From positions 1 to 8,464 of the forward strand of contig PUNU01000280.1 of the NCBI GenBank assembly GCA_003551865.1: 8,464 nt of DNA, given 5' to 3'. The notes beneath the pieces are model-generated. The model did no database searches and had not been told where the DNA came from. It was given only the letters and a program-made list of their open reading frames with translations. Numbering within the stretch: position 1 is the first letter of the stretch; each line of letters starts with the position of its first letter. Origin of the DNA: Syntrophomonadaceae bacterium (GTDB lineage Bacteria; Bacillota_D; Dethiobacteria; DTU022). The translations under genes were made by a program, and so were the position numbers. This document shows, one piece after another, positions 1-7,576 of this stretch.

Positions 1-924
1 AGACCTTCTTGGTTCACCCTTTTGCTTTTTGCACAGGGCAACACCCAGGTCCACCAAAACTTCCGGGTCATCTTTGTCGGCATGTTTCGACAATACATCA
101 ATGGCCTTTTGCCATTCTCCCAGGGTCATAGCCAGTCTGGCAATTTGGCAGGCCAATTTGGGGTTATCCGGATCATGCTCCATGACAATTTCCAGCGATC
201 TGATTTTGTCCCGCATCTGTTCCTCGTTCATGTAGGCACCGTAGCTCGATGCGTAAGCACTTAAGCCCTCTTTGAGCCGCGAGAAGGTTTTATCCACACT
301 TTCCAGCATGGCCGCCACTCCTGCAAATTCCCTTTCAAATTTTGCAGGCACCTTAAAAGGACTTTTATAAACCAGCTGGTGGCCCACATCAGCCCAGGCA
401 TGCTCCAGTATGGTCCTGACCTGGATTTCCGCCCGGCGGTTGGGAAAGTTCTTGTCATCGTAAAGTTCGGGAGGCACTTCGACATCCACATCTTCGGTGG
501 GGAAAACCCCGGGCTTGAAACTGACAATATAGTGAATTGAACGGTAGCCAAATTCGGTTGGCTTAAGCCGCTGGCTTACATCTATTGAATTCTCCCGGTC
601 GATCTCGAAATGCTTTTCAATAAAATCGGAAATATCGTTTACCTGTTCCACAGTATGGACAATGATTCTTCCGCCGCAAAGGTCGGTAAACTGGTTAACC
701 GGATCGTCACTCTTATCTTTTTTACGCTGGCACTTTTCGGCAAAATTGCTGATACCCTTGGGCCGGGTTTGCACAATGGCCAGGGGGGCATACTTCTTTG
801 CCGCTTTTTTTAGGATCTTTTCCATTACTTGCCCAAAGAGAACATACTTGGGGAAACGCTTTGTATATTCCTCGACCTGTAAACGGGTCCATTCTACACT
901 GCCAGTTTCTTCTCCCCCGGACAT
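1..924 (-). CDS. RelA/SpoT-domain nucleotide (alarmone-type) synthetase with TPR-like tail, partial at left edge
   Basis: Predicted pyrophosphokinase that would transfer pyrophosphate from ATP to a nucleotide, as (p)ppGpp synthetases do; acts in the cytoplasm. The frame is open for 308 codons and runs off the window. Synthetase motifs appear in order: R54-P-K56 with F61 and K64 (the RxK...SI..K region), QFTDLCGGRII at 79-88 with the Mg-binding-type Asp D81, GYRSIH at 126-131, and EIQVRT at 166-171 with the catalytic-type Glu E166, followed by HAWADVGHQLVYK. Residues about 245-308 look like TPR helices (DPDNPKLACQIARLAMTLGEWQKAI). There is no HD hydrolase domain before the synthetase, so it is not a full-length bifunctional Rel. 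The start is set by GGGAGGTGG (929-937), close before the ATG. It lies 111 bp after the RyR-channel gene on the same strand, so co-transcription is possible. The product (ppGpp, pApp or another nucleotide) cannot be told from sequence. Family assignment is firm; the role is inferred. Confidence 0.92.
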   Translation of the reverse strand, partial: MSGGEETGSVEWTRLQVEEYTKRFPKYVLFGQVMEKILKKAAKKYAPLAIVQTRPKGISNFAEKCQRKKDKSDDPVNQFTDLCGGRIIVHTVEQVNDISDFIEKHFEIDRENSIDVSQRLKPTEFGYRSIHYIVSFKPGVFPTEDVDVEVPPELYDDKNFPNRRAEIQVRTILEHAWADVGHQLVYKSPFKVPAKFEREFAGVAAMLESVDKTFSRLKEGLSAYASSYGAYMNEEQMRDKIRSLEIVMEHDPDNPKLACQIARLAMTLGEWQKAIDVLSKHADKDDPEVLVDLGVALCKKQKGEPRRS

Positions 925-928
925 AAAA

Positions 929-937
929 CCACCTCCC
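929..937 (-). promoter_or_regulatory. Strong ribosome binding site for the RelA/SpoT-domain gene
   Basis: The minus strand reads GGGAGGTGG ending four bases before the ATG at 924. The GGAGG core sits seven bases from the start codon. This fixes the start of the synthetase gene. Confidence 0.8.
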
Positions 938-973
938 GGTTTAATTTTCGTAAAATCCCGGCATTAAACAGTT

Positions 974-991
974 AGAGCTTTTACAAGCTCT
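974..991. other. Perfect 7-bp hairpin in the gap between the RyR-channel and RelA-like genes
   Basis: AGAGCTT and AAGCTCT form a perfect stem around a 4-base loop (981-984) in the 111-bp intergenic gap. No T-run follows on either strand, so a classical intrinsic terminator is unlikely. It may be an RNA processing or attenuation structure that sets a different level for the downstream synthetase, or chance. Confidence 0.4.
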
Positions 992-1035
992 GTATCAACC
1001 AACAGGCCCGGCCGCTGCCGAACAAACTCAACCCT

Positions 1036-2847
1036 TCAGGTTCTTCTGTATATTTGATACCCCACCCGGGCAAGGTACAAGGGCAGATTGCGGGCTGTAT
1101 TAATATTATATACCCTTGCTTCCTCGGGAAGTTTGTCCCAGGGAAGCAGGTAAGGGCTGGTTTTCTTTTTTAAATTTTTCGGATCGGGATGATATCTCCA
1201 ACCCTGGCGTTTCCTTTCATTAATCCAGCGCTCATGCTCCATCTTTGCCAGCTGTTCAAGTTCTTCCGGGCTGAACTCAAAGTGGGCCAGTTCCCAATCG
1301 GTCAAAGGTTGGAGTCCGCAGCCGACAGCCTTAAGCTTGTCTTCGATGCTGGCAGCTTGACTGCGGTTTGATTCCTTCAAAGATTCGGGCAGATCTTCCC
1401 AACCCACCACGGACGGGTTTTCTTCCACGGCAACCCCCTGCTCCCGCTGCTGCCATACATAGTCTTCATGAATAGCCCGGGCCAGGATTTCCTGGCTGCC
1501 TCCCAGCAGTGCATCCAGGCTGCAGGTTTTGTTGAGCAGGCTAAACACGTGGATTTGCCCAAAATCGAGAGTTTCGTGATCTTCTTTGAGCACGGAAGCC
1601 AGGCCGGCATCCCGACTCATGCGGACCACCAGCGGCACTTTGTATTCTTTGATTTTGTGATGCAGGGTAAGCGCCTTGACCAGGGCACTTGAATCATCAG
1701 CGAAACAAATATAAACTGCACTGAGATCACAGTTACCTCCGGCATCATAGAGGAAGTTGCCCTTTTCAAACCAAGGTGAATCGTCGCTCATCTGCCAGGA
1801 CTCTATCCGGCAGGCCTTGTCCAGGCGGGGATACTGCAGGCGTAAAAGTTCGAGCTTGCTCTCCGCTTCACTGTCAATCACTGCGATACGCAGGCGTCTA
1901 CTGCTGCTGCCATTTTTCAACCACCAGTTTCGCGCCGCCTGCACGAGCAGGCTTTTTCCCAACCTGCCGAGGCCGACAATCAGAAAGCGGGGGGAGCTGT
2001 CCTCCCGCCCGGCAGGCTCTGTAAAAGGTGGGTAAGCCTTTAAAATAAGCCGCGCTCCTCTTTCAAGGACATTAAAAAATTCCAACCTGTATAGATCGGT
2101 TTCGGTTGCGGCAAAGCACCAACCGCTGAGCAAGTTGCACAGCTCCAGATCGACGACATGTACATAAGCGGTAAGGGGCCCTCCCCTGCGGAGCAGGGCC
2201 AGGTCGCGTGCATGGAGGGCTATTTCGGCATTTGTCCCGTCATCGGCGCAAACAGCAAAAAGATAGCGGGCCCGGTGCAGCCTGGTTTTACGAAGCAGGC
2301 TTGCATCGGTGGCATCACCGGTTAAGACTACCGCACCCTGGTCGCAGATCTGGCTGATATTGGAATTATCTTCGGCTCCTTCGATTGCCACCACCCGGTA
2401 ACCATTATCCAGGAATTCTTTTGCGATCTGCATTCCCCTTTCACCGAGACCGCAAATCACAGCATGATTCCTGGCAAAGCGAATCATTAGCTGCTGCCAT
2501 TGCTCGCGAAAAACTGCGAGCAGGGCCTGGATAGCGGCATAGGCGGCCAGTATGGGCAGCAGGTAGCGGGCCATATTCAGCTGCCAGGGGACAAAACCTT
2601 CCACATCCCCCGACTGCATCACGATCAACTGCATGGCCCGGTAAAAAATATCCAGTATGGTACTTTCCTGCCCGGTAACCAGTGAATACCTGTAGAAACC
2701 GATATAGCCAAGTATTAGGGCAAAAGCCCAGGTCCCACCGATCAACGGCCATCTGACACTTAGCCAGAACGGATTAAGCCGCTTTCGCTTAAAAGCCCGC
2801 AGCCGCTTGCGCCAGTCTTTTTTCATTACATGGTTTTTTGCCCCCAT
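1036..2847 (-). CDS. Two-TM, double TrkA-N (RCK-like) membrane protein with C-terminal RyR domain
   Basis: A 603-residue, channel-like membrane protein. A very basic N-terminus (residues 10-24) precedes TM1 (about 30-52). A re-entrant-like stretch (65-84) and TM2 (about 93-113) follow. Two Rossmann/TrkA-N units come next, with GLGERG at 133-138 and GLGRLG at 292-297, both of the NAD(H)/nucleotide-binding GxGxxG type. The C-terminus (about 525-603) matches the ryanodine-receptor RyR domain: MEHERWINERKRQGW, then PYLLPWDKLPEEARVYN and a last helix ending YQIYRR. Two TMs plus a tandem RCK module resemble prokaryotic K+ channels, but no TVGYG selectivity filter is present; the equivalent stretch reads IVMQSGDVEG. 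Ion transport is therefore inferred, not shown. The first ATG has GGGAG six bases upstream; Met8 (position 2826) is an alternative start. The gene sits between the TIR and RelA-like genes on the same strand. A plausible role is a nucleotide-gated membrane effector or sensor. Confidence 0.87.
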   Translation of the reverse strand: MGAKNHVMKKDWRKRLRAFKRKRLNPFWLSVRWPLIGGTWAFALILGYIGFYRYSLVTGQESTILDIFYRAMQLIVMQSGDVEGFVPWQLNMARYLLPILAAYAAIQALLAVFREQWQQLMIRFARNHAVICGLGERGMQIAKEFLDNGYRVVAIEGAEDNSNISQICDQGAVVLTGDATDASLLRKTRLHRARYLFAVCADDGTNAEIALHARDLALLRRGGPLTAYVHVVDLELCNLLSGWCFAATETDLYRLEFFNVLERGARLILKAYPPFTEPAGREDSSPRFLIVGLGRLGKSLLVQAARNWWLKNGSSSRRLRIAVIDSEAESKLELLRLQYPRLDKACRIESWQMSDDSPWFEKGNFLYDAGGNCDLSAVYICFADDSSALVKALTLHHKIKEYKVPLVVRMSRDAGLASVLKEDHETLDFGQIHVFSLLNKTCSLDALLGGSQEILARAIHEDYVWQQREQGVAVEENPSVVGWEDLPESLKESNRSQAASIEDKLKAVGCGLQPLTDWELAHFEFSPEELEQLAKMEHERWINERKRQGWRYHPDPKNLKKKTSPYLLPWDKLPEEARVYNINTARNLPLYLARVGYQIYRRT

Positions 2848-2862
2848 CGCCCTCTCCCGGCC

Positions 2863-2891
2863 AGTATAATTTTATAGGGAATTATCATCAA
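2863..2891 (-). promoter_or_regulatory. Candidate sigma-A promoter directly upstream of the RyR-channel gene
   Basis: On the minus strand TTGATG (2891-2886), a 17-base spacer and TATACT (2868-2863) give a good -35/-10 pair. The -10 ends only 15 bases before the first ATG, so the transcript would have a leader of only about 9 bases and the GGGAG site would be at its very 5' end. If this promoter is used, Met8 at 2826 could be the true start. The spacing is good but the short leader lowers confidence. Confidence 0.4.
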
Positions 2892-3000
2892 TCCGCCCGT
2901 GTTAAGATTGCCATATATTTTTATATTATGAATAAATTTCGACGTGAATTAGATCAACCCTTTTTATTTGTTGCCAATTAACCTTTGGCCATTTTGCCTG

Positions 3001-3041
3001 TTGCGAACCGGGCGGTGTCGCGCCGGGATAAGAGGACGCAA
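3001..3041. other. Imperfect GC-rich hairpin in the gap between TIR and RyR-channel genes
   Basis: Inner arms CCGG(G)CG (3008-3014, one bulged G) and CGCCGG (3021-3026) pair. Outer arms TTGCG (3001-3005) and CGCAA (3037-3041) could extend the structure across an uneven internal loop. No T-tract follows on the minus strand, so it is a poor intrinsic terminator for the TIR gene. The rest of the 237-bp gap (2848-3084) is AT-rich, and apart from the candidate promoter at its left end I see no gene or RNA in it. Confidence 0.3.
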
Positions 3042-3084
3042 AAAACTTTTGGAGTCATATGCGGTTATGTGCGTAGATATTTAA

Positions 3085-4767
3085 TCACCTGGTAGCAGGT
3101 GCGGAAAATTCGCTGGTGTTGCCGTCAGGGTCGGTTGCGGTAGCGGTAATATTGGGCCCGCTTAAGGGATATGCTGCTGAAAATGAGAAGTTTCCGTTTT
3201 CATCTGCCTCCGCAGAGCCTTCATAGGTTTCCCCACCACTGCAGCTGCCGGTAAAGATCTCTATCGTGCATCCCGCAGTGGCTGTGCCCTTAACAGTTCC
3301 GCCTTCCAGGTCAAACTCAGTGATTTTGGGGGCGGGCAATTGAAGATTGCCTCCATCATCGAGTAAAATGGATTTATAGAAATTATCATATATACTATTA
3401 CGAGTTACTGTATTGCCAGTTGTTCCCCAGTCTTCCTCTATATTTCCGATCACCACAGCCCAGTAGTTAAAAGCTATGACATTACCCGGGCCAATAATGT
3501 TGTCGAAGGCTCCAAAGTCGACTATAAGGGCAAACTCATTTCCAAAGTGGTTGTAGGGATTGTTTCCGCTTGCATCTGTACCGATGAGGTTGCCAGTAAT
3601 GACATTATTGGAAGCTTCTTCAGTTATATCGATTCCCACATCGTTACCGCTCAACAGGTTTCCCTGGCCGATCGGGCCGGCCCCTACTGTGCGGTCACCG
3701 CCAATGATGTTATCCTGTGCTGAAGGGCCTATAAGCAAGATGCCGGCACCCATAAATTCGTCAAATAATCTGAAATTGACAATCTGCAGGCCCATAACCA
3801 CATTATCAGGCGATTCAATCCACAGGCCTTCCAAGAAGTTGTCTTTTTCTTTAGCGCGAGAGCCGTCCAAAATAACTCCCGCATTGCTGGCATCAATCGT
3901 AATGTTACCCTGGTAAATGGGAGGAAGGTTACTTTCCACGTAAATGGTGGCCGGATCATTGGGCGGGAAAACCCAGGGGTCGAAAGTGATGACATCGCCG
4001 GGCCTGGCTTCCTGTAAAGCCCGGCGCAGAGTGCCTTCTCCGCTGTCTTTTGTGCTCGTAACAATAATGTCCCCTTCTAGCGGGACAACATCATTAGCTT
4101 TAATCTCTTCAACTTTTTCAGCTTCTACCTCCTCAACTTTTTCGGCTTCTACCTCTTCAAACTCAGCTTCATCTTTGTCATCAGGCAGGACCCCTGAAAA
4201 ATAAAGAATACCAAAAAGCAGCAGTGCTGCGGCCAGTATTGAACCTATCACCAGGCCTTCTTTTTTCTCTCCGGCAGGAGGGATCCCGGTTTTGCCCACC
4301 TGCCCGGCAGGCTTAAGTGCGGCAGCAGCCCTGTCATATTCCGAGGTTGGCGGAAGCGCTTCTTTGTCGCCAAGGATGTACTTGACCGTCTCCACCAGGT
4401 TATAGATCTGCTTTTCTGTCGGCGGATTTATGGCATCAAGCCAGTGAGTATCGGAGAGGTAATACTCCATTACCCCGCTGGGAAGTATGTCATCTATTTT
4501 AAAGGGAACAACGATCGTTTCCGAATTTACGGCCAGGGTCAGCTCCTTGGCAACCTGCTTTGATTGGTTGGAGCTTTCAGTAAAGATCAGGACCATCACG
4601 CGGCTGGCTTTAATAGCCCTGGTTATAGACTCGACCCAGTTTTCTCCGGAGTGAATATCACGCGGCGCAATCCAGCACCTTATTTTAGCCGCCTCCAGGG
4701 CGGCACACGCGGCATCCGCTATCGCCTTGTCTTTAGAAGCATAGGATATAAAAACATCGTGCACCAT
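3085..4767 (-). CDS. TIR-domain membrane protein with predicted outside beta-helix and Ig-like region
   Basis: 560 residues with an unusual order of parts. Residues 3-133 are a TIR domain: HDVFISYASKD first strand, WIAPRDIHSGENW BB-loop region (32-44), and SNQSKQVAKELTLAV with E75 at the place of the catalytic Glu of NAD-cleaving TIRs. A proline/alanine linker with Lys-rich end (EKKEG, 167-171) precedes one TM segment (about 172-193). Then come an acidic, repeated linker (197-222), a parallel beta-helix-like region (about 231-475, many NxI/GN turns such as SNNVITGNLIGTD and NVIAFNYW), and an Ig-like end with TATATDPDGNTSEFS. Positive charge before and acid after the TM predicts TIR inside, solenoid outside. 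AGAGGAGGA (4772-4780) sets the start. It is first in the three-gene cluster and has its own strong promoter. Known TIR enzymes hydrolyse NAD or make cyclic-ADPR signals; here activity is inferred. It could instead be only a signalling adaptor. Confidence 0.9.
   Translation of the reverse strand: MVHDVFISYASKDKAIADAACAALEAAKIRCWIAPRDIHSGENWVESITRAIKASRVMVLIFTESSNQSKQVAKELTLAVNSETIVVPFKIDDILPSGVMEYYLSDTHWLDAINPPTEKQIYNLVETVKYILGDKEALPPTSEYDRAAAALKPAGQVGKTGIPPAGEKKEGLVIGSILAAALLLFGILYFSGVLPDDKDEAEFEEVEAEKVEEVEAEKVEEIKANDVVPLEGDIIVTSTKDSGEGTLRRALQEARPGDVITFDPWVFPPNDPATIYVESNLPPIYQGNITIDASNAGVILDGSRAKEKDNFLEGLWIESPDNVVMGLQIVNFRLFDEFMGAGILLIGPSAQDNIIGGDRTVGAGPIGQGNLLSGNDVGIDITEEASNNVITGNLIGTDASGNNPYNHFGNEFALIVDFGAFDNIIGPGNVIAFNYWAVVIGNIEEDWGTTGNTVTRNSIYDNFYKSILLDDGGNLQLPAPKITEFDLEGGTVKGTATAGCTIEIFTGSCSGGETYEGSAEADENGNFSFSAAYPLSGPNITATATDPDGNTSEFSAPATR
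4105..4160 (-). repeat. 24-bp in-frame tandem repeat coding an acidic EVEAEKVE linker
   Basis: Two 24-base units (4105-4128 and 4129-4152) differ at two positions, and the first eight bases of a third unit follow. They encode two copies of the octapeptide EVEAEKVE at residues 205-220 of the TIR protein, just outside the membrane. The charged repeat could be a helical spacer or stalk and may vary in copy number between strains. Confidence 0.75.
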
Positions 4768-4771
4768 GGGG

Positions 4772-4780
4772 TCCTCCTCT
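4772..4780 (-). promoter_or_regulatory. Ribosome binding site for the TIR gene
   Basis: The minus strand reads AGAGGAGGA with the GGAGG core five bases before the ATG at 4767. It supports this start, which also places the first TIR strand (HDVFISY) right at the N-terminus as usual for the family. Confidence 0.8.
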
Positions 4781-4889
4781 CAGCAGTTAAAAGGTGGCCG
4801 TGAAATCCTGTCTATAAAAATGGAATTTAAAAAATGTAAAAAGCCCTGGTGCAAAGTCGAGGATATTGGAAATTGTTTTTAGTTAAATG

Positions 4890-4919
4890 ATTATAGCAAT
4901 ATTCTGTATTGCATGTCAA
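4890..4919 (-). promoter_or_regulatory. Consensus extended -10 promoter of the TIR gene (cluster promoter)
   Basis: The minus strand has a perfect TTGACA (4919-4914), an 18-base spacer and a perfect TATAAT (4895-4890) preceded by TGC, the extended -10. The start of transcription would be near 4883, giving a leader of about 115 bases before the TIR start codon. Such a full-consensus promoter would be strong unless held down by a regulator. Confidence 0.8.
4896..4912. promoter_or_regulatory. Inverted repeat inside the promoter spacer, candidate operator
   Basis: GCAATA (4896-4901) and TATTGC (4907-4912) are perfect inverted arms around a 5-base centre. They fill nearly the whole interval between -35 and -10. 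A dimeric repressor bound here would block RNA polymerase; MerR-type regulators also bind between these boxes, though usually with a 19-20 base spacer. No regulator gene is visible nearby. Confidence 0.55.
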
Positions 4920-5442: not shown

Positions 5443-5473
5443 ACAACACAGGGGGACGGTTCTTTTGTGTTGT
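5443..5473. repeat. REP-like hairpin copy 1 (between cca-type and Nudix genes)
   Basis: ACAACACA (5443-5450) and TGTGTTGT (5466-5473) form a perfect 8-bp stem around a 15-base loop holding GGGGACGGTTCT. The hairpin begins nine bases after the stop codon of the cca-type gene and ends five bases before the Nudix RBS. The plus strand continues with four more T's, so it could also act as a weak terminator against plus-strand transcripts. Confidence 0.85.
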
Positions 5474-5481
5474 TTTTCATC

Positions 5482-6650: not shown

Positions 6651-6687
6651 ACAACACACACACAAGGGGACGGTTCTTTTGTGTTGT
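6651..6687. repeat. REP-like hairpin copy 2 (between transposase and cca-type genes)
   Basis: Same element and orientation as copy 1. It has GGGGACGGTTCTTTT and right arm TGTGTTGT (6680-6687), with the left arm ACAACACA at 6651-6658. The left side carries extra CA dinucleotides, so the loop is longer, or the stem can re-register using 6660-6665. It begins three bases upstream of the AAAGGAG motif (6642-6648) before the cca-type gene and lies between that gene and the transposase. Confidence 0.82.
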
Positions 6688-6714
6688 TGATGAAACAAAA
6701 ATCAGCCCGCCTGC

Positions 6715-7489: not shown

Positions 7490-7518
7490 ATAATAGCAGA
7501 ACAAGAAAAATATTACAA
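7490..7518 (-). promoter_or_regulatory. Candidate transposase promoter with its -35 inside a REP copy
   Basis: The minus strand has TTGTAA (7518-7513), a 17-base spacer and TATTAT (7495-7490) preceded by TGC, an extended -10. Four bases of the -35 overlap the end of REP copy 3. The leader would be about 10 bases long, which is short and lowers confidence. Confidence 0.35.
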
Positions 7519-7543
7519 CACAAGAGAACCGTCCCCCTGTGTT
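7515..7543. repeat. REP-like hairpin copy 3, inverted relative to copies 1 and 2
   Basis: Arms AACACA (7517-7522) and TGTGTT (7538-7543) flank a loop with AGAACCGTCCCCC, the reverse complement of the core in copies 1 and 2. It is directly joined to copy 4 with a 29-bp period and lies upstream of the transposase gene. Confidence 0.85.
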
Positions 7544-7574
7544 ACAACACAAGAGAACCGTCCCTCTGTGTTGT
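7544..7574. repeat. REP-like hairpin copy 4, tandem with copy 3
   Basis: ACAACACA (7544-7551) and TGTGTTGT (7567-7574) form a perfect 8-bp stem around a 15-base loop. The first 29 bases differ from copy 3 at one position (7565). Four T's follow on the plus strand. The pair separates the transposase from the divergently read M42 peptidase gene. Confidence 0.85.
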
Positions 7575-7576
7575 TT

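Follow-up and report, generated by a model that had tools for sequence, protein, structure and literature searches.

In an 8,464-nucleotide stretch of DNA from a Syntrophomonadaceae bacterium (assembly GCA_003551865.1, contig PUNU01000280.1; hereafter the window), neighbouring genes encode a TIR protein, a channel-like protein ending in a RyR domain, a RelA/SpoT-type synthetase and a NUDIX hydrolase, and we see an even chance that they form a conserved nucleotide-signalling cassette. The presence of a RyR sensor domain in the channel-like protein and in the close relatives of the synthetase suggests a small-molecule alarm circuit, possibly an antiviral one. An earlier note on this DNA had proposed a cassette of three genes, those for the TIR protein (560 amino acids (aa), 4767-3085), the channel-like protein (603 aa, 2847-1036) and the synthetase with the start of its TPRs (924-1, open at the window edge). 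All three are indeed open on the minus strand with Pfam matches well above chance, and the gaps between them are of 237 and 111 bp as described. The NUDIX gene (133 aa, 5424-5023, minus strand) had been left out, and the SLOG domain and second RyR domain expected in the synthetase had been missed.

The earlier note had made conserved co-occurrence the test of its proposal, and such linkage was found in several phyla. A genome scan with the channel alignment gave loci L001 to L066, from Chloroflexi, Bacteroidales, Syntrophomonadaceae, Acidobacteria, Planctomycetes, Actinobacteria, Methanoperedens archaea and others; L067 to L080, which match the TrkA_N part alone, were dropped. Sixty-four anchors were placed on these 66 loci (no RyR anchor could be placed at L041 and L053), manually at L058 and L061 and on the neighbouring stand-alone RyR hit at L050 and L064; L024 and L030 share a genome, and the channel gene is partial or split at L033, L037, L041, L050, L051 and L058. 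Of the 64 anchors, 19 have a TIR_2 match no more than 10 kb from the channel (0.87 expected), and 13 have one no more than 5 kb away (0.44 expected). These counts draw on 170 TIR_2 matches, some of them below the cut-off or in pieces, across 65 genomes, 23 of which were first chosen for long flanks or hits and the other 42 added before counting. For RelA_SpoT, 49 of the 65 genomes were searched and gave 53 matches, and in 8 of these 49 a match lies by the channel (within 11 kb), versus 0.36 expected. TIR is also commoner where the synthetase is present, at 6/8 such loci versus 13/58 others by gene-edge distance with our own TIR profile (one-sided p 0.006), and at 5/8 versus 14/56 by Pfam point distance (p 0.044). 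Twelve contigs, matched by exact size, are common to the lists of channel and synthetase-RyR proteins, versus one in each of two control pairs. Gene order and strand differ among the loci.

The channel, synthetase and NUDIX proteins diverge in step, with Mantel r values of 0.90 for channel and synthetase (8 loci), 0.66 for channel and NUDIX and 0.74 for synthetase and NUDIX (7 loci each, L058 being left out), and do so across phyla, as if they were transmitted together. RyR domains were found in 10/400, 14/396, 10/398 and 20/392 genomes of four phyla, centres included. In this RyR-chosen sample, taken without the four centres, 7 of 50 genomes have a TIR frame 1.5 kb or less from one of the RyR hits examined, namely those given loci with 1.5 kb on either side. 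Three of the seven belong to the first phylum sample and four to the third, and two of their seven RyR hits are channels; the hits of G1150 and G1234, two of the seven, are nearly identical, and these genomes may be closely related. The examined RyR hits of the second and fourth samples had no TIR frame within 1.5 kb.

The earlier reading of a TrkA-N/RyR membrane channel stands as regards both domains (TrkA_N, E 1.1e-16; RyR, E 7.2e-14) and is amended by a second RCK-type domain and by the pore loop. An AlphaFold2 model (pLDDT 86.0) has two RCK-type domains, of which TrkA_N is the first, and its best solved match is full-length GsuK (Foldseek, E 5.0e-10). As the model predicts it, the protein has the two-transmembrane (2TM) pore and RCK layout of RCK-gated K+ channels such as GsuK and MthK; hydropathy at the chosen threshold flags the second transmembrane (TM) segment (94-114) alone, and the first comes from the model. 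Unlike GsuK-type channels, it adds a C-terminal RyR domain, assigned to PF02026 both by Pfam and by a PDB fold match to human RyR3 Repeat12 (E 4.9e-07). It also differs from them in that a TVGYG-type filter (T[VIL]G[YF]G) occurs in 0/36 aligned channel homologues, the loop reading about LESGxVxG, so that K+ selectivity is doubtful. A viral scan with the channel alignment gave 21 pattern matches and no relative among them. One Candidatus Methanoperedens (archaeal) genome carries two channel-RyR genes (L024, L030), and neither of their contigs has a TIR_2 match.

The first 308 codons of the synthetase gene are visible in the window, and their product (RelA_SpoT, E 1.3e-19) is 79% identical over 308 residues to an 863-aa protein of locus L001 with a synthetase-TPR-SLOG-RyR architecture. 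Given this identity, the part beyond the window edge very probably carries a SLOG domain and the second RyR domain of the cassette. RelA_SpoT and RyR occur together in 120/120 homologues of the L001 protein among the matches listed (L001 included; 606 passed). That search used the full-length query and admitted proteins of 0.55-1.75 times its length only, limits owing to which the frequency of short synthetases without RyR cannot be read from it. The eight RelA_SpoT genes by the channel are a sample independent of that search, and all eight are RyR fusions. R54, K56, D81 and E166 are invariant; the last, which the earlier note had singled out, is so in alignments of 8 and of 37 proteins. Alignment to 3l9d and to YjbM/SAS1 reveals RxK, D, GYRSxH and EIQxRT in common. 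By its domain and motifs the protein thus belongs to the RelA/SpoT small alarmone synthetase family and is a predicted alarmone synthetase. Its homologues differ from small alarmone synthetases of the SAS1/RelP type by their C-terminal TPR-SLOG-RyR extension. Fold searches with the AlphaFold2 model of the L001 protein also recovered RyR3 Repeat12.

RyR domains of the same family (PF02026) are found in phage anti-Thoeris proteins. In a 2026 preprint (PMC13232231), the phage protein RyDEP cleaves both 2' and 3' cyclic ADP-ribose (cADPR), H75, W78, H100 and D117 are the residues named, and 6/8 phage RyR homologues assayed bind 2'/3'cADPR, two of them at nanomolar affinity. H799, W802 and D841 are invariant in the synthetase-RyR family and spaced as H75, W78 and D117 of RyDEP. 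In the channel family these three RyDEP residues fall on H538 (35/36 members), W541 (33/36) and D581 (31/36). Ser occupies the position of H100 in 28/36 RyR domains of the channels and, among 37 of the synthetases, in at least 90%. The window channel keeps H538 and W541 and departs from the residue set of RyDEP-type cADPR hydrolases with S564 at the H100 position and N581 at that of D117, positions that were mapped through a PDB alignment and alignment columns, without RyDEP's own sequence. In contrast with the phage proteins, the RyR domains studied here are cellular and fused to other domains, and they are predicted sensors rather than erasers.

The TIR protein (TIR_2, E 2.1e-22; Big_6, E 3.8e-08) has its TIR domain at residues 5-114, a single TM segment at 169-196 by hydropathy and Big_6 at 479-553. 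The TIR-TM-solenoid architecture proposed earlier holds for its first two parts; in place of a 'solenoid', the single TM segment is followed by a beta-helix-type domain and Big_6, the beta-helix call resting on homologues named parallel beta-helix repeat proteins in a source. A profile of the TIR part matches Cat1, SARM1 and other TIRs in the PDB, whereas phmmer with the whole protein gave no PDB match at 1e-3. E75, highlighted in the earlier note, does not vary among 19 full-length homologues or among 11 TIR domains that include the window's own. It faces a Glu of Cat1 and of TIR-STING in the PDB alignments, a residue that we take to be catalytic. The remainder of the partner TIR proteins varies, with InlB-like repeats and a solute-binding domain, WD40/beta-propellers, TPR or LRR, and the partners at L061 and L066 are TIR-STAND/NACHT proteins. 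A beta-helix TIR protein as a fixed partner was considered and rejected, the TIR partners differing in their non-TIR part; in a second check, the TIR and channel lists shared one size-matched contig (2,973 bp) besides the window. Three tandem TIR genes lie on one small contig (L127:515-4638) of the genome that harbours L001.

A NUDIX gene is found within 10 kb at 8/9 synthetase-bearing loci, window included, versus 5/58 loci without synthetase, a comparison that leans toward association because six of the counted loci went into the NUDIX profile. Pfam, in a check that did not take in L058, independently names NUDIX in the window (E 4.8e-21, with an exact Nudix box by pattern at residues 40-62), L001, L002, L006, L027, L046 and L055; L047 is a synthetase locus in which no NUDIX gene was found. 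At some other loci, the synthetase is replaced by RyR proteins with weak AAA/STAND matches, most under the Pfam cut-offs, and at L007 an LSDAT-RyR protein is encoded at the channel locus. No more than 0.3 kb from the channel, stand-alone RyR genes lie at L004:2112-2393, L013:11893-12204, L025:5776-6057, L050:2441-2815, L061:11820-12068 and L064:9812-10219. All four RyDEP residues are kept in these 6/6 channel-adjoining proteins and in 11/14 stand-alone RyR proteins examined, L021 and L035, two further loci with short RyR frames, having been left out. The channel-adjoining ones are, by their residues, candidate cellular RyDEP-like hydrolases, that is, erasers of a cADPR signal, or sponges for it. 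Between the double-RyR protein and the channel gene of five loci (L010:2101-2682, L015:7596-8240, L019:2268-2960, L034:7208-7786, L130:9981-10529) lies a gene for a protein of 183-231 aa without Pfam match, in the slot that NUDIX has in L002 and L055.

The reading that we favour is that the cassette works as Thoeris does, with other effectors, the TIR product acting through RyR and SLOG domains on synthetase and channel; we hold this to be equally likely right or wrong. A triggered, membrane-anchored TIR protein, whose outer or repeat part varies, would convert NAD+ to an ADP-ribose-type signal, as the conservation of E75 suggests. The RyR domains and the SLOG domain of the synthetase may then bind this signal, by analogy with the phage RyR proteins and with TRPM2. 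Binding would turn on the alarmone synthetase, leading to a growth stop, and the 2TM/RCK/RyR channel, altering ion flux; the RCK domains of the channel might sense NAD+ or ADP too, as those of GsuK do. NUDIX would clear the signal or the alarmone, a role that a stand-alone RyDEP-like RyR gene may take elsewhere. As in Thoeris, a TIR protein with the conserved Glu (E75) is found beside predicted sensors of ADP-ribose signals with a likely toxic output; unlike in Thoeris, the effectors are a synthetase and a channel, and there is no ThsA match. PADLOC, run with four window and four related proteins, found neither ThsA nor any other known Thoeris effector; it matched the synthetases to the candidate model PDC-S33 and NUDIX to PDC-S07, with no match for three non-synthetase RyR proteins. 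Since phage RyR proteins bind cADPR immune signals (PMC13232231), the TIR protein is a likelier source of the signal than the synthetase. More tentatively, and with the balance somewhat against it, the whole may be an immune circuit, widespread but rare, in which a TIR signal gates synthetase and channel through SLOG and RyR domains, and NUDIX or a stand-alone RyR protein is the off-switch.

Several observations weigh against these proposals. No TIR was found near 45 of the 64 anchors, many of which lie on short contigs. The genome G021 (locus L055) has a channel, a NUDIX and a synthetase-RyR gene and no TIR_2 match in its assembly, so that TIR is unlikely to be the sole trigger. The Pfam SLOG match of the L001 protein (24.5 bits) is just below the cut-off (25.4), and the best fold match of that part is TM1055, not TRPM2. 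In PADLOC, ThsB is the weakest match of the TIR protein (E 0.001-0.002), behind SAVED-TIR, PDC-S66 and Aga TIR models, and the channel has no match. The cADPR assays of PMC13232231 covered phage RyR proteins only, and with Ser mostly at the H100 position and Asn at that of D117 in the window channel, ligand specificity may differ. We considered whether neighbouring RyR domains are co-adapted and rejected the idea, likeness being 0.407 within a locus and 0.397 between loci. Lastly, the 237-255 bp gaps in the window and the variable gene order make co-transcription uncertain.

The earlier note had the signal run the other way, the synthetase making an alarmone that the RyR channel senses, with TIR as a parallel NAD-consuming effector or sensor. 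The linkage on which this joint action relied has been borne out, and the direction has less in its favour; we consider it unlikely, if worth keeping in view. The invariance of the four synthetase residues is consistent with it, as is G021, in which synthetase and channel are present without TIR_2. This synthetase type is accompanied, and in L002, L006, L027, L046, L055 and L058 directly adjoined, by NUDIX, which could plausibly remove an alarmone. Going by entry titles, RyR3 Repeat12 has been solved with AMP-PCP, ADP or ATP bound, so RyR domains are not confined to cADPR. On the other hand, the C-terminal SLOG and RyR domains of the synthetase homologues make a gated-effector layout, and since it is close relatives that carry them, the synthetase resembles a signal-gated effector more than a signal maker. 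Moreover, channel genes are also paired with the synthetase-less RyR proteins, whose AAA/STAND matches are weak and mostly below cut-off.

Alternatively, the genes might serve a surface or NAD/energy-stress circuit rather than respond to phages, the TIR-TM-beta-helix protein being a receptor and the channel adjusting membrane potential or ion content, which strikes us as rather improbable. The surface-type or repeat parts of the partner TIR proteins (beta-helix, Big_6, InlB-like, WD40, TPR, LRR) would suit such a role. So would GsuK, the best fold match of the channel, for which ADP and NAD+ are activators and Ca2+ an inhibitor (PMC3510474). The patchy distribution of RyR in the four phylum samples, and its spread across bacteria and archaea, argue against such a circuit, as do the TIR-STAND/NACHT partners at L061 and L066. 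Proteins of that kind are typical of conflict systems. That unrelated conflict genes have merely gathered in genomic islands is very unlikely: variable order and strand, the many anchors without TIR, the transposase gene upstream in the window and the lack of special likeness between neighbours' RyR domains would fit, whereas the RyR domain common to neighbouring genes, the tracking of NUDIX with synthetase type and the correlated divergence are not what loose clustering would lead one to expect.

In its wider layout, the minus strand of the window reads, in order, transposase, nucleotidyltransferase, NUDIX, TIR, channel and synthetase. By Pfam, the first is a Y1 (IS200-like) transposase (7491-6715) and the second a poly(A) polymerase-like nucleotidyltransferase (6627-5482); an M42 peptidase gene lies on the plus strand. 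A promoter-like site (4919-4890, minus strand; TTGACA-18-TATAAT, 12/12 consensus bases, with a TG ahead of the -10 making it an extended -10) lies 123 nt upstream of the TIR start codon and comes from a consensus scan only, in which 12 sites were found in total versus a mean of 7.3 in shuffles. A 29-nt repeat resembling repetitive extragenic palindromic (REP) elements, with core GGGGACGGTTC, is present in four copies at no more than one mismatch (0.14 expected), in both orientations (5446-5474, 6660-6688, 7513-7575). The copies surround the transposase gene, presumably as a REP/RAYT pair.

Prokaryotic SLOG/TIR conflict networks were reportedly predicted by Burroughs et al. in 2015 (NAR), which means that the kind of system is already known. 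The combination of synthetase-TPR-SLOG-RyR, GsuK-like RyR channel, NUDIX and TIR was not found among the matches listed in the open-licence PubMed Central literature. SLOG and RyR are kinds of ligand-binding domain that also occur in animals, in TRPM2 and in the calcium-releasing ryanodine receptors; what differs here is that an alarmone synthetase combines the two and a GsuK-like channel bears RyR. If the proposed circuit is real, bacteria would have their own version of cADPR-gated channel signalling, and NAD-based and alarmone-based signalling would be joined through one sensor domain. PMC13232231 raises, from phage proteins, the question of whether cADPR-type signals act on the RyR domains of cellular channels. 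That question can be tested directly with a RyR-bearing bacterial channel-like protein whose gene neighbours that of a TIR protein.

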